From: Candidatus Gracilibacteria bacterium
GTDB lineage: Bacteria; Patescibacteriota; Gracilibacteria; BD1-5; UBA6164
Length of the DNA stretch: 64,000 bases
Reading direction: 5' to 3'
Assembly (NCBI GenBank): GCA_010119145.1
Contig: JAACSU010000009.1
Span: 1-64,000 of the forward strand
Part shown: one piece after another, positions 27,251 to 51,294 of the stretch
Layout: every line of letters starts with the position of its first letter
How positions within the stretch are numbered: the stretch's first letter is position 1
Position numbers and translations under genes: made by a program
Notes under the pieces: model-generated
The model's database searches: none
Seen by the model: only the letters and a program-made list of their open reading frames with translations
What the model was told of the DNA's origin: nothing

Positions 27251-29329
27251 ATGTTATATAATATTAAGATACAAGCCTTTACACTCGTTGAACTCATAGT
27301 AGTGATAACAATCCTATCGATTCTTTGAACGATAGGATTTATTAGTCTTCAGTGATTTGCTGTTTCAGCAAGAGACAGTGCTCGATTAAGCGATATAAAT
27401 ACTATTTCGCGAGGTTTAGAATATTATCAACTCGAAACGGGAAGGTATCCAGATCCTGATGATAGTGTTGAGTTCTCAAATAATTGAAATGTTCTTTGGA
27501 TTCAGTGAACATTTTGAGAAGAAGCTAAAAATACAGTTCAAAGGGTCTCTGAGATTCCTCTTGACCCTGTTTATAAAACACAGTACCAATATGCTGTGAC
27601 TCAAACAAGGAGAGAATTTGAACTAGCTGCTCTCATGGAAAAACAGAGCATATTTTGAGTTGAGTCTTCCATTTTTACTCAAATTCATGCAGACAACCCA
27701 TTTTCTGTATATAGTAGTTGAAACTATAATAAAAAATATATATCAGATATCCAAAATGGTAATATTCAGATTTTTTGAGTTCCTACTTTGATCACAAATA
27801 CGAATCAAGCTACTGATATCTCTTCACTTATATCCCAAAATAATTTTTCACTTCCAGGATGAAATAATCTTCCTGCAGTATATGCAGGTAAATTAAAATG
27901 AGAAAATTCACATACTTGAACCGTTAATTTTATTCCTGGAAGTGTTTCTTGATATACAATTCCACTCGTTTACTCTTGAAGCTTACAGTGACTCTCATGA
28001 ATCGGTGGAAAAGTTAGTTTTTGAACGAATTTGCGAGATTATTATGTTGATTCTAATGCATCTAGCATTAATGATTATAATAGTTTTAGAACGTATAACA
28101 CTCAATCAAAGATAGTTTGATTTGTAAATTCACTCATTCAATCTGAAAAATGATGACTCAATACTGATTTAATCACTATTTCTGAAATTATAGATGTCAG
28201 TTCTGTTGTAGAAGCTAGTTATCCAGCGAATACCTTTGTGTCAATTTGGGATTCCTTATGAACCTCAACTCTCACAATTCCAGTTGCTGGTTGAGGAGCA
28301 AATTATAATTTATATTATGAAAAAATCACTGATAAAACTCAGACATGAAGTTTGACTTGACTTACAGCAGCTGCAAATATCAACCTCCCAAGTCCTTGAA
28401 AATATAGAATTGAAATTACGTGAAATATGCCTCAGCATCTTTGTAATTCAAACGTAGCTTGTGAAAAAATTGAATCGGTTATCCAATGGTGAAATGTCTG
28501 ATGGACATCTGCGTGATCATCATTTTTTTGAGCAACGAACCTTCTGAGTGTTCCAAACAATACCATCTGACTTGAGTCGGTTACTAACATGTCTCAAATG
28601 TTTAGAAATGCTTCCAGTCTCAACTCAAACTTATCTGCGTGGAATCTATGAAGTGTTACTAATACCTCAAATATGTTTTTTTGAGCAACTGCGTTCAACT
28701 GAGATGTTTCCTGATGGAACATGTGAAGTGTCGTAAATATGTCTCAAATGTTTAGAGATGCAGCTAGTTTTAATTCCAGTTTATCTGCGTGGAATATTGC
28801 AAATGCTACGAATACTTCATGAATGTTTTTTGCTGCAAGTAACTTTAACTCTGATTTATCCTCTTGGAATCTTACCAACGTTACAAATACTAGTCAGATG
28901 TTTAGAAATGCTGTTACATTCACTTCTGATCTCTCAAATTGGAATGTATCTAATGTTACAAATATGTCTTACATGTTTAATGGAACTACACTCTTCACTT
29001 CTGATTTATCATCGTGGAATGTTTGAAAGGTTACTAATATGCTTCAAATGTTCAGATCAGCCAACAATTTTAACTCCAATCTCTCAACTTGGAATGTTAT
29101 AAATGTGACCAATATGTATCAAATGTTTTTCGCAGCAGTAGCGTTTAGCTCTGATTTATCATCGTGGAATGTTAGCAAAGTTACTTCAATGCAGCAAATG
29201 TTTAGAGGGGCTACAATTTTTTCTTCAAATTTATCATGATGGAATGTAGCAGCAACTGATGTGGCTAATAACTATGATTTTGATTATAATACATCTTGAC
29301 TTACTGCTGATCAATACCCGATTTGGTAA
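27251..29329 (+). CDS. Prepilin-anchored protein with nine DUF285 repeats (692 aa)
   Basis: N-terminal type III signal: MLYNIKIQA/FTLVELIVVIT with Ala at -1 and Glu at +5. A pilin-type globular segment follows (GRYPDPDDSVEF, PLDPVYKTQYQYAV). Residues about 160-220 contain a module shared with the proteins at 60109 and 62878 (SGNYN, TPxxI, AVYAG-like). The C-terminus has nine tandem 25-residue repeats of type VTNMSQMFRNAxxFNSDLSSWNV, the BspA-type DUF285 leucine-rich repeat of bacterial surface proteins. It should be processed by prepilin peptidase and inserted into a pilus-like fibre, displaying the repeat rod outward. Single gene, two bases before rlmH. Confidence 0.8.
28580..29254 (+). repeat. 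Nine tandem 75-bp repeats encoding DUF285 units
   Basis: Exactly 675 bases, nine units of 25 codons with consensus VTNMSxMF..A..FNSDLSSWNV. Units share Trp at position 21 and Met/Phe at positions 7-8. DNA identity between units is moderate, so the array is not freshly expanded. Confidence 0.9.
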
Positions 29330-46493: not shown

Positions 46494-46520
46494 CGTGTAG
46501 ATAGTATATATCTTCTTGTG

Positions 46521-47063
46521 ATGATGAAAGTTGATTTACATACTCTATGAGATATTGAAATTGATGAAAGTAGATTGTGTGAGTACTGTACTGACGATTC
46601 AATCCATCTTGAAATTAGCTACAATTCAGATTTTAGAAATGCTGTTTTTCTTCGGAAAATAGCCGATTTTATATGTAAGCATTATTGAGTTCATCCAAAG
46701 TGGAGAACGAGAATCGTACTCATCGTTGATGAGCTCAATAACAATGCTATTGAGTACGGTACGTTGAAATGAGGTAGTAATCTATTTGAGTTCCAATTGG
46801 TAAAAAATACATGCTGAAATATAGATATTCGTATAAGTGTTACAGATGCTTGAAACGGATTGCATGCTAAAAATGCTGGTAACATGAAAGAACTTAGAGA
46901 CCAACATAACTCAAAAGATTTTTCAAAACATCACTCTATACGAGGGAGAGGTCTCTTTTTAATTATATCTCGACTGGTAGATAGTCTTGAATTTGAGGAT
47001 GTAGATAAGAAAGGATTAAAAGTAATAGTTACGAAATCTCTTCAGGTACATTCAGACTCTTAA
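46521..47063 (+). CDS. RsbW-like ATP-binding (HATPase) protein
   Basis: 180 residues. GHKL motifs: N-box VLIVDELNNNAIEYG, G1 box SVTDAGNGL and G2 region SIRGRGLFLIISRL. This matches anti-sigma/serine kinase RsbW-SpoIIAB type proteins rather than sensor kinases, since there is no DHp or transmembrane part. Partner sigma or antagonist genes are not adjacent. Its last 35 bases overlap the convergent FtsQ-like gene. ATG 46524 in the same frame is an equally possible start. Confidence 0.8.
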
Positions 47064-48004: not shown

Positions 48005-48346
48005 TTATTTTATATCTAAGTTTGAAATAGCTTGCGTAATTCAAAATGATATTTCACCACTTTCGTCATATCGAAATCTAATTTTAGGTACTTTTATAAA
48101 TTGTATTTTTCTTCAAAGCATCCTATGTATTTTGTGGGCATGTTCAGCAAGTTCTTTTGTTATGCCTTCTGTTTTTTTTAAACTACTCACATATACGTCT
48201 AAATATGACAAATCTTGACTCATTTTAACGTCAGTGACTGTTACTATTCAATACTCAATACTCAACTCCTGAGCCTCTTCAATTAGGTAATTGGCAATAA
48301 GTTGTTGAGTAATTGACTCTGCTTTTTGAATTCGTTCTTGTTTCAT
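48005..48346 (-). CDS. rbfA: Ribosome-binding factor A
   Basis: 113 residues. KH-like fold: RIQKAESITQQLIANYL, VTVTDVKMSQDLSYLDVYV (the V..VxxSxDLxxAxVYV motif), HRMLRRKIQFIKVPKIRFRYD (RxxLxxxxxLRxxPxLxFxxD). Assists 30S maturation. Four bases before the ftsQ-like start, so the two are co-transcribed. Confidence 0.88.
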
Positions 48347-48453: not shown

Positions 48454-48460
48454 AGGGAGA
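48454..48460 (+). promoter_or_regulatory. Strong Shine-Dalgarno sequence of rpsU
   Basis: AGGGAGA, seven bases before the ATG at 48468. Nearly every other start in the window has only A/T-rich sequence upstream, so this site stands out and fixes the bS21 start. Confidence 0.75.
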
Positions 48461-48467
48461 TAGAACT

Positions 48468-48668
48468 ATGATATACGCAATAAGAAAAGATTCTGAATCA
48501 AACGAAAAACTTGTACTGAGATATAAAAAACTATTCTTTCAATCTAGAATTGTTACAAAACTCAAAAAAGAGCGATACGCTGTTAAGGATCTTAAAAAGC
48601 GAAAACAACGTGAAAAAGCAATTATCACGAATCATTACAGAGATTTGAATTCAAAAGTTTACTTCTAA
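48468..48668 (+). CDS. rpsU: Small ribosomal subunit protein bS21
   Basis: 66 residues with bS21 features: RKDSESNEKLVLRYKKLFF (the E.xxxAlrRFkr pattern) and a very basic C-terminal helix (KDLKKRKQREKA). It has no glycine, so no TGA. bS21 sits near the 16S rRNA 3' end and the mRNA exit. Transcribed alone from a TTGACA promoter and ended by a long hairpin. Confidence 0.85.
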   Translation: MIYAIRKDSESNEKLVLRYKKLFFQSRIVTKLKKERYAVKDLKKRKQREKAIITNHYRDLNSKVYF

Positions 48669-48673
48669 ATTCA

Positions 48674-48728
48674 TTGACATAAAAAAATACTTTCAACTCC
48701 TTGAGCCGAAAGTATTTTTTTATGTCAA
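48674..48728. terminator. Perfect 21-bp inverted repeat after rpsU
   Basis: Arms 48674-48694 and 48708-48728 are perfectly complementary, with a 13-base loop. The 3' arm contains seven T, so it works as a terminator. The stem is far longer than others here and could also protect the short rpsU mRNA from 3' decay. Confidence 0.85.
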
Positions 48729-48796
48729 GAGGTTCTTCTTTACCAGAATGTAAAAGTTATTACAATAAAGTTATATACCTTATTCTATGTACCTTT

Positions 48797-49999
48797 ATGA
48801 GACAAAATAAAAGCGGATTTACGTTTGTAGAACTTATTGTTGTCCTTGTTATTATTGCAATACTATCTACTATAGGTTTTACTGTTTATGAATCCTATCT
48901 CTCAACAGGTAGGGATACTAAAAGAATTATTCAGTTAGATTGACTTCAAAAGAGTCTTACGAGTTACGCGAGTCGATCAAAACTTCCGCTTCCTGAAAAT
49001 AGTTTACAAATTAGTTTCTCAGGAGCTGTATTTATATATCAAGGAGAAATTACGAATGCAATAGCAAAAACCATTTGATTTGATTGAGATGTTGAGGATT
49101 CTCACTTAGGTATTAATCCTATATATAGTCTTTCAAGTAATCGAAAAGACTTTCAAATAATGTCATATCTGGAAGAGGGGCTAACAACTCAGAATTTAAC
49201 TCCAAATTCTTATGCTGCTGTTGGATATGAAAATCTTTATATTAAGACTATTTGAAAACCAGTATGAATTTTACTTGATTCTGATTCAAATTCACCTATT
49301 AATACAATTCCACAATACAGTTCGCTATGAATTTATGATATTATTTCTTGAACTTGAAATATTGATGTAGTATTATCTGATTCAAATTATTTTGAAGCTA
49401 CTTCTGAAAATATTCTCCAATTAATACCAAATCATAGCTGTAAAAGAATTCTTGAAATGTGAAACTCTAGTTGAGATGGGATATATACTATTTCACCAAA
49501 TTGAAGTAGTAAAATTCGAACTTTCTGTGATATGCGTACTGATTGAGGTGGTTGGACACTCTTATTGAATCATGATGTCAATGCTTGAGTATTTCCAGAT
49601 AATGCACAAGCACTGAGTAATGATATATGAAATCCAACTAGTTGAAAATATTCTATCTTAGATCAAACACAGTATTTTAAAAAAGATAACATGTTTACTT
49701 TTTGGATACATTATCCAGAGTTGGGTGATTCTACCTCATGAAACTTTTGGAGCCAGCAATCTAATCCAACAGTAAACCCTTGAACTTCAACTGGTTGAGT
49801 AACTTGATATACTCCAATAAGTATAGATTACTCTTGAAGTTGATGGTGAGGACTTGAATATAATGGTACAAGTACTCTTGCTGATTGAAATGTTAATTCT
49901 ACGGGTTGGTTTTATGCAATTGGAAATAAAACCTTATGGAATTGATGAACTCCAGGACCCACTGCTGCAGTTAAAAAAGTACAATTGTATATTAAATAA
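48797..49999 (+). CDS. Prepilin with fibrinogen-like C-terminal domain, 1 of 4 in tandem
   Basis: 400 residues. MRQNKSG/FTFVELIVVLVIIAILST has a Gly -1/Phe +1 cleavage site and Glu +5. Then a pilin-type segment (KLPLPENSLQISF, GAVFIYQG, NRKDFQIMSYLEE), a linker module (AAVGYENLYIKTIGKPVGIL) and a fibrinogen-related domain starting at CKRILEMGNSSGDGIY with FCDMRTDGGGWTLL. An upstream in-frame-like ATG at 48721 would add a non-pilin leader and lies in the rpsU hairpin; 48797 gives the right prepilin leader. Likely an adhesive minor pilin. Confidence 0.82.
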
Positions 50000-50004
50000 A
50001 ACTT

Positions 50005-51294
50005 ATGAAACATATAAAAAAAGGATTTACACTTGTGGAGCTTATGGTGGTCGTAGTTATTCTCAGCGTGTTAGCTACTGTAGGTTTTATTTCATACGAA
50101 GCGTATTTAGTAGATACGAGAGACAGTAAGAGACTTGCTCAAATAACGGGACTCAGAGATGGTCTACGACTCGCGACGACTAAATGATCACTTCCTATTC
50201 CTGATGATGCTGTTGAAATTCGCAATAATAGTACAACTTTTTTGTATCAATGATATGCTTGAGAAGATGTTTTAAACTCTATTTCATATAGTGATAGTAC
50301 CGTTGATCCTCTCGATGAGACATACTATACTTATATGCTCTCTGATAATAGAAAAGATTTTCAGATTATGTGATTTCTAGAAAAGTATAACCAAGATGTT
50401 ATATCTCTTAACACTCAAAGCGTATTTGCAGCTGTTAATTATTCTCAGAGGTTTCCAAATACAGTGGGGAAGAAACTTTGAATTTTGTTACAACAACAAA
50501 CAAATACTCCACTTCAAGAAATACCTGAATATGCAGGAACTGGATTTATAGACTTACAAAATCCAACTACTAATTTATTTGATGCATATATTACTGATAC
50601 GTATATTATATCTTGAAAAGAGAATGATCTCATTTGAATTATCCCTTATACAACCTGTAAAAAAATAGCTAACAATGGTGGAAGTTATGGAAATGGGATT
50701 TACAATATTAACCCTACGGGACTCAACCCATTTGAAGTATACTGTGATATGGAGATAGATGGTGGATGATGGACTTTAATTTGAAGAAGTCATGAATCTG
50801 CTGCTCCTAACGACTTTTGATGGCTTTCAAAAAGAGGGACTGTGAGAGATAATAACTCAGCATATTCTCTCTGAGTTGATTCTATAGAAACGAACTTCTC
50901 TGAAATAATGATTAGTTCCTACTCAAGTTGAAAAAATATATCCTATGCTGCTAAAACTTCTGTTGATCGAAGTTACTATAAAAATACAGCTAATTATAAA
51001 ACATTTTCACGTTGAGTATGATGTACAGAAGTCTTTCCGGTTACCTCTTGGAGGAGTCCTTGTGACGCAACATGAGTTGATGGAAAAGCAACTGAGCATA
51101 GCGCATTAGTATTTTGGTGATTTTTTAACTATAGTGGATTAGATACCGTAAATGATTCACATTTTTACTTTGATCATTTTGCAAGAAATAGCCCAACCTT
51201 ATTTTACTGACTTTATGCAAATGGATGGAATAAAGAAACATGAGATGGACTAGGAGAATTGTTTTGAAAACAAGGGATGGTATTTGTAAGATAA
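50005..51294 (+). CDS. Prepilin with fibrinogen-like C-terminal domain, 2 of 4
   Basis: 429 residues. HIKKG/FTLVELMVVVVILSVLAT, pilin segment with SLPIPDDAVEI and RKDFQIMGFLEK, linker TVGKKLGILL, then TCKKIANNGG, VYCDMEIDGGGWTLIGRS. The C-terminal end GLGELFGKQGMVFVR is shared with the next two genes (DLAGKPGMIYVR, DLAGKNGMIFVR). Additional Cys pair (GCTEVF, SPCDAT). Five bases after the previous stop. Fibrinogen-like domains commonly bind carbohydrate or protein. Confidence 0.82.

Follow-up and report, generated by a model that had tools for sequence, protein, structure and literature searches.

Why should a genome whose genes mostly start without a Shine-Dalgarno (SD) sequence keep one strong SD, in front of rpsU, the gene for ribosomal protein bS21? 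The question arises from a 64,000-nt stretch of DNA of a Candidatus Gracilibacteria bacterium, referred to here as the window. The source genome (1.28 Mb, 37 contigs, 97% complete) requires genetic code 25, with 88% of the sequence coding when TGA is read as glycine vs 16% under the standard code; the 66 codons of rpsU contain no in-frame TGA. The rpsU leader forms a 10-bp complementarity with the 3' tail of the 16S rRNA of its own genome, is unique among the sampled gene starts, is conserved in the family, and co-evolves with the 16S tail through compensatory changes across the class.

The rpsU leader and the 16S rRNA tail

The features of the locus are as follows:

48005..48346, minus strand: rbfA, 30S ribosome-binding factor (TIGR00082, 65.7 bits; PF02033, 2.1e-19)
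48454..48463, plus strand: extended Shine-Dalgarno AGGGAGATAG of rpsU (16S tail, -14.7 kcal/mol, conservation, covariation)
48468..48668, plus strand: rpsU, small ribosomal subunit protein bS21 (open reading frame, 66 aa; homologues, bridging Pfam matches, profile to solved bS21 chains)

The divergent neighbour rbfA is given as context only. The window bS21 scores 13 bits against PF01165 (Pfam S21), under the gathering cut-off of 27, and homologues from the class score above the cut-off, at 29.8 and 33 bits. A profile (A2) that includes the window protein matches solved bS21 chains, with 1.4e-7 to 6eri_BU and many further bS21 chains. bS21 is detected in 57 of 60 relatives, and bS18 and bS6 are present alongside it; one relative has a second bS21-like copy with an altered N-terminus (L080, G018:C1). 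Scanning the window for Rfam families and tRNAs gave no matches, a search of viral contigs for related bS21 found none, and a promoter scan upstream of rpsU was near chance. In the leaders of many relatives (L307-L310 and others of family f1), a T/A-rich stretch, CACTTTA or TTTATAATTTAA, is kept ~20-30 nt upstream of the rpsU start codon, and is possibly a promoter -10 element or a transcript start.

The 16S rRNA 3' end of the source genome reads GGA-CUAUCUCC-UUAU, the canonical sequence being GGA-UCACCUCC-UUUA. Specifically, the single 16S gene ends GCGGATGGACTATCTCCTTATAT (canonical end, GGATCACCTCCTT), from which the mature 3' end was inferred, and positions 1532, 1533, and 1535 are changed (E. 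coli numbering, alignment by eye), making the anti-SD core UCUCC. The rpsU leader reads TTCAGGGAGATAGAACT-ATG. The earlier note had placed AGGGAGA seven bases before the rpsU ATG, and this is confirmed (AGGGAGA at 48454-48460, ATG at 48468); once the genome's own 16S tail is used, the complementarity runs past AGGGAGA to 48463, a match that the note had missed. The resulting helix, between leader positions 48454-48463 and 16S 5'-CUAUCUCCUU-3', has 10 bp with one G.U pair, covers all of the changed bases, and leaves a spacer of 4 nt before the ATG. The predicted pairing energy is -14.7 kcal/mol with the genome's own tail vs -8.0 kcal/mol with the canonical tail (ViennaRNA duplexfold, a procedure not identical to that of PMC9976891).

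A strong start signal confined to rpsU

The earlier claim that rpsU alone among roughly 60 starts has a strong SD holds in the window, where the best of the 60 other genes reaches -6.9 kcal/mol vs -14.7 kcal/mol for rpsU. It also holds beyond the window: a genome-wide scan for common SD use, named beforehand as the refuting test, found no widespread use. In particular, gene-by-gene scoring of 694 genes (738 kb, ~58% of the genome) gave -9.2 for the best other start, and no alternative in-frame start of these genes fell below -12. Genes were called with a simple code-25 caller of our own, with inferred starts, and rpsU, which is too short for this caller, was scored separately. The small contigs C1-C6 were left out of the final gene count; C5, which had topped the first scan, uses the standard code (code 11), carries a perfect canonical SD, AAAAGGAGGTGG (L223, 2994-4682, genome G000), and is probably an assembly contaminant.

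Pairing energies of -7 or below are reached by 1.6% of the 694 genes with the genome's own tail vs 0.6% with permuted tails. SD-like words are depleted before starts, with GGAG found at -17..-4 in 0.7% of genes vs 1.3-1.5% further upstream. In the S10/spc ribosomal protein cluster (contig C7) the strongest pairing is -4.9, and rpsR has -1.6. A whole-genome scan for GGRGRTAG-N2-9-ATG returned seven distinct sites, a number close to that from the reversed control; rpsU is the sole site at a gene start, the six other exact matches lying inside genes. Gene starts in general are A-rich at -11/-10 and -5 to -3, have T at -1 and few G, and in this resemble SD-less starts in Bacteroidota, which are also A-rich (PMC9976891). 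Because 2% of permuted tails give some gene a pairing as low as -14, energy alone is no proof of the rpsU pairing; the proof comes from conservation and covariation.

Other genes of the window include two for pilin-like proteins that carry a methylation motif at the N-terminus, at 48701-49999 (plus strand) and 50005-51294 (plus strand), the former also matching Fibrinogen_C (8.5e-7), an unusual combination. Further pilin-like genes lie nearby at 27251 and 51305, and 46518-47063 (plus strand) encodes a HATPase_c_2 protein of anti-sigma or serine-kinase type, here in a small CPR genome.

Co-evolution of the rpsU leader with the 16S tail

Leaders in the family follow the pattern A[AG]GG[AG]G[AG]TAG at SD distance, and 31 of 33 pair at -10 or below, most of them at -13 or below. 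In the single-contig relative G024, which has the same 16S tail, rpsU ranks first of 356 genes, at -16.7, the next gene reaching -11.8; G024 has a few more SD-like starts than the source genome. Across the class the 16S tails differ, and the leader covaries with six different tails (16S recovery across relatives was partial, 25 of 60 in one survey):

tail TCACCTCC: leader GGAGGTGA (G061, G149, G159, G194, G232, G254)
tail CTATCTCC: leader GGAGATAG
tail TTATCTCC: leader GGAGATAA (G148)
tail TTACCTCC: leader GGAGGTAA (G226) or GGGGGTAG (G235, congeneric with G232)
tail AATACCTCC: leader GGAGGTATT (G138)
tail CTATCTCCTTCG: leader CGAAGGGGATAG (G038)

Over the 33 SD-bearing genera, the mean pairing is -13.15 with the own tail vs -10.93 with permuted tails (0 of 20,000 permutations), in a permutation that ignores the tree and in which many family members share one tail. 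Averaged by group, the six leader groups each find their best partner in the tail type that they accompany, except that the one CCACCTCC leader ties with the canonical tail. Taken singly, 27 of 33 leaders pair best with their own tail type, and the leader prefers the own over the canonical tail in 18 of 21 variant-tail genera. Two-sided changes are seen at 1535 (17 G-C, 18 A-U), 1533 (22 A-U, 10 G-C), and 1532 (15 G-C, 12 A-U); changes at positions 1537 and 1540 are G.U-only, and leader variation is for the most part G.U-compatible. The tail types are spread over several families of the class, so that several of the compensations look independent. From these patterns in the sequences, we judge it almost certain that the pairing of rpsU with 16S rRNA is under selection.

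The signal extends beyond recoded genomes and variant tails. Specifically, G149, with the canonical tail TCACCTCC and no detectable recoding, has an rpsU leader at -16.8 although SDs are scarce in its genome, where 1.7% of 172 genes reach -7 or below vs 1.0% for permuted tails. Because G149 shows the same pattern, the rpsU-only SD is caused neither by recoding nor by the variant anti-SD. Strong, canonical rpsU SDs also occur in many other CPR families, so that, with G149, the rpsU-only SD looks older than the recoded lineage. The earlier note had proposed a convergent, Flavobacteriia-like loop in a recoded lineage; the parallel in sequence stands, and the tie to recoding is not supported in view of G149 and the other CPR families. 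In a phylum sample outside the class, ~10 of 23 leaders pair at -13 or below with canonical tails assumed, the sample being small, consisting of best-scoring bS21 matches, and including a few misplaced starts. Of three genomes outside the class with a strong rpsU SD, two are near SD-scarce.

The strong canonical rpsU SDs of many other CPR families could also be taken to mean that the rpsU SD is a slowly decaying relic of an ancestor with wide SD use. A relic, however, would not track the 16S tail, as the leader does with compensatory changes opposite three positions, and the canonical-tail genome G149 has lost its SDs elsewhere too; in view of the covariation, we regard a relic as very improbable. 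The covariation likewise disfavours AGGGAGATAG as a DNA or protein-binding operator. An operator would be in keeping with an element that is short, conserved, and upstream of a ribosomal protein gene, but AGGGAGATAG keeps SD-like spacing, most of its variation is G.U-compatible, and it changes in step with the 16S tail; we find this reading scarcely credible.

The signal has been lost in parts of the class. A single supported clade on the 16S tree unites the five genomes with CTATCTCT, none of which has an rpsU SD, and the SD is likewise absent in G037, with tail CTACCTCT. The decayed core, CUCU, is found in two lineages, both without an rpsU SD. An intact core is associated with the presence of the SD (Fisher p 0.0024), but with only one or two origins of the CUCU core on the 16S tree we do not treat this association as proof. 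The SD is also absent despite an intact CUCC core in G073, G082, G099, G119, G120, G191, G174, and genomes of family f7, and the system is therefore dispensable. The expectation that rpsU orthologues in relatives have an SD fails for some; beyond the decayed-core lineages, orthologues without an SD occur in G009, G020, families f7 and f17, and genus g83, without known CUCC decay (the 16S tails of G009 and G020 were not recovered). Strongly degraded anti-SD regions, e.g. AAATCACCTTTG, GACCACCACCC, and GGAACGTTTCTG, are seen at L326, L328, and L329 (G098, G089, and G112, family f13) and at L317 (G209, family f7). The f13 genomes that were checked give a weak bS21 match or none.

Proposed feedback by bS21 and its alternatives

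Feedback of bS21 on its own synthesis has been demonstrated in Flavobacterium johnsoniae: bS21, bS18, and bS6 together hold the 16S tail, and rpsU is over-translated, via its extended SD, by ribosomes without bS21 (PMC9976891). The locus described here resembles that system and its Bacteroidota counterparts in having an SD-scarce genome, a single exceptional SD on rpsU, and a pairing below -13 kcal/mol, and in both the SD tracks a variant anti-SD: CUAUCUCC here and UCUCA in Chryseobacterium (PMC9976891). The helix is 10 bp here vs up to 13 bp in Bacteroidota (PMC9976891). Unlike the Bacteroidota system, the present locus belongs to a CPR phylum, has anti-SD changes at 1532, 1533, and 1535, has a bS21 in which Tyr54 and the pocket residues are not placeable, and is described from sequence. 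Chlorobia, a group that is SD-scarce and has a strong rpsU SD, as here, lacks Tyr54 and conserves 11 other pocket contacts (PMC9976891).

By analogy with Flavobacterium, bS21 is likely to autoregulate its synthesis through ribosomes that lack it. On 30S subunits bearing bS21 the 16S tail would be held or masked, and such subunits would use SD-less starts. Where bS21 is missing, the tail would be free to capture rpsU mRNA through the long helix, so that more bS21 would be made; and, as subunits fill with bS21, rpsU translation would drop. Such feedback would keep 30S subunits complete. The profile alignment to F. johnsoniae chain 7jil_z spans only chain residues 7-52, and the bS21 C-terminus here is not alignable to the Flavobacterium region that holds Tyr54; in relatives, a conserved aromatic bS21 C-terminus (VYF/FY) shows no clean correlation with presence of the SD. 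These features of the C-terminus speak against the model, as does the absence of the rpsU SD from several lineages whose CUCC core is intact (f7, f17, genus g83).

The SD could instead confer constitutively high translation of rpsU, with an anti-SD that is always free and no feedback. A long SD-anti-SD helix at the normal position suffices to raise initiation, and the rpsU-16S pairing by itself is no demonstration of regulation. However, no SD precedes other ribosomal protein genes of high expression, and the genome as a whole is depleted of SD-like words, whereas a useful free anti-SD should serve more genes. Moreover, rpsU is also the gene that carries the signal in Flavobacteriales, for which feedback has been proven (PMC9976891). 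We consider constitutive translation unlikely. Feedback could also operate without a sequestration pocket, if bS21 were needed for SD-independent initiation and subunits without it fell back on mRNAs with an SD, such as that of rpsU. F. johnsoniae ribosomes without bS21 also initiate less well on SD-less mRNAs (PMC9976891), no pocket signature could be made out in Gracilibacteria bS21 (within chain residues 7-52 of the profile alignment), and in Chlorobia this rpsU signal occurs although Tyr54 is absent (PMC9976891). We give this pocket-free form, which makes the same predictions at the level of sequence as autoregulation with a masked tail, a low probability.

SR1 (Absconditabacteria) and some other CPR are described as SD-scarce and without CCUCC in the parts of PMC10783764 available to us, and these CPR relatives resemble the present genome in an altered 16S anti-SD and few SDs. 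In those parts, SR1-type tails are read as having lost anti-SD function, and rpsU is named for Flavobacterium only, whereas in the present genome rpsU remains a dedicated partner of the altered tail. A search of literature on Gracilibacteria, Absconditabacteria, and CPR, covering few subscription papers, found no rpsU-specific SD report.

The bS21 loop was previously known only from Bacteroidota, and the co-evolution of rpsU with 16S rRNA points to one in Gracilibacteria. Tentatively, rpsU-only bS21 feedback may be old and widespread in CPR, either ancestral to the Bacteroidota system or separate from it; in Gracilibacteria it may be what chiefly holds a drifting anti-SD in pairing with an mRNA, with the loop abandoned on decay of the core. 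CPR are mostly uncultured, and little is known of how their ribosomes choose start codons. A co-evolving single start signal shows the anti-SD to be still functional and identifies the one mRNA that it serves, which explains the survival and sequence change of the anti-SD in genomes that no longer use SDs, and suggests that specialised ribosomes without bS21 may regulate bS21 far beyond Bacteroidota.
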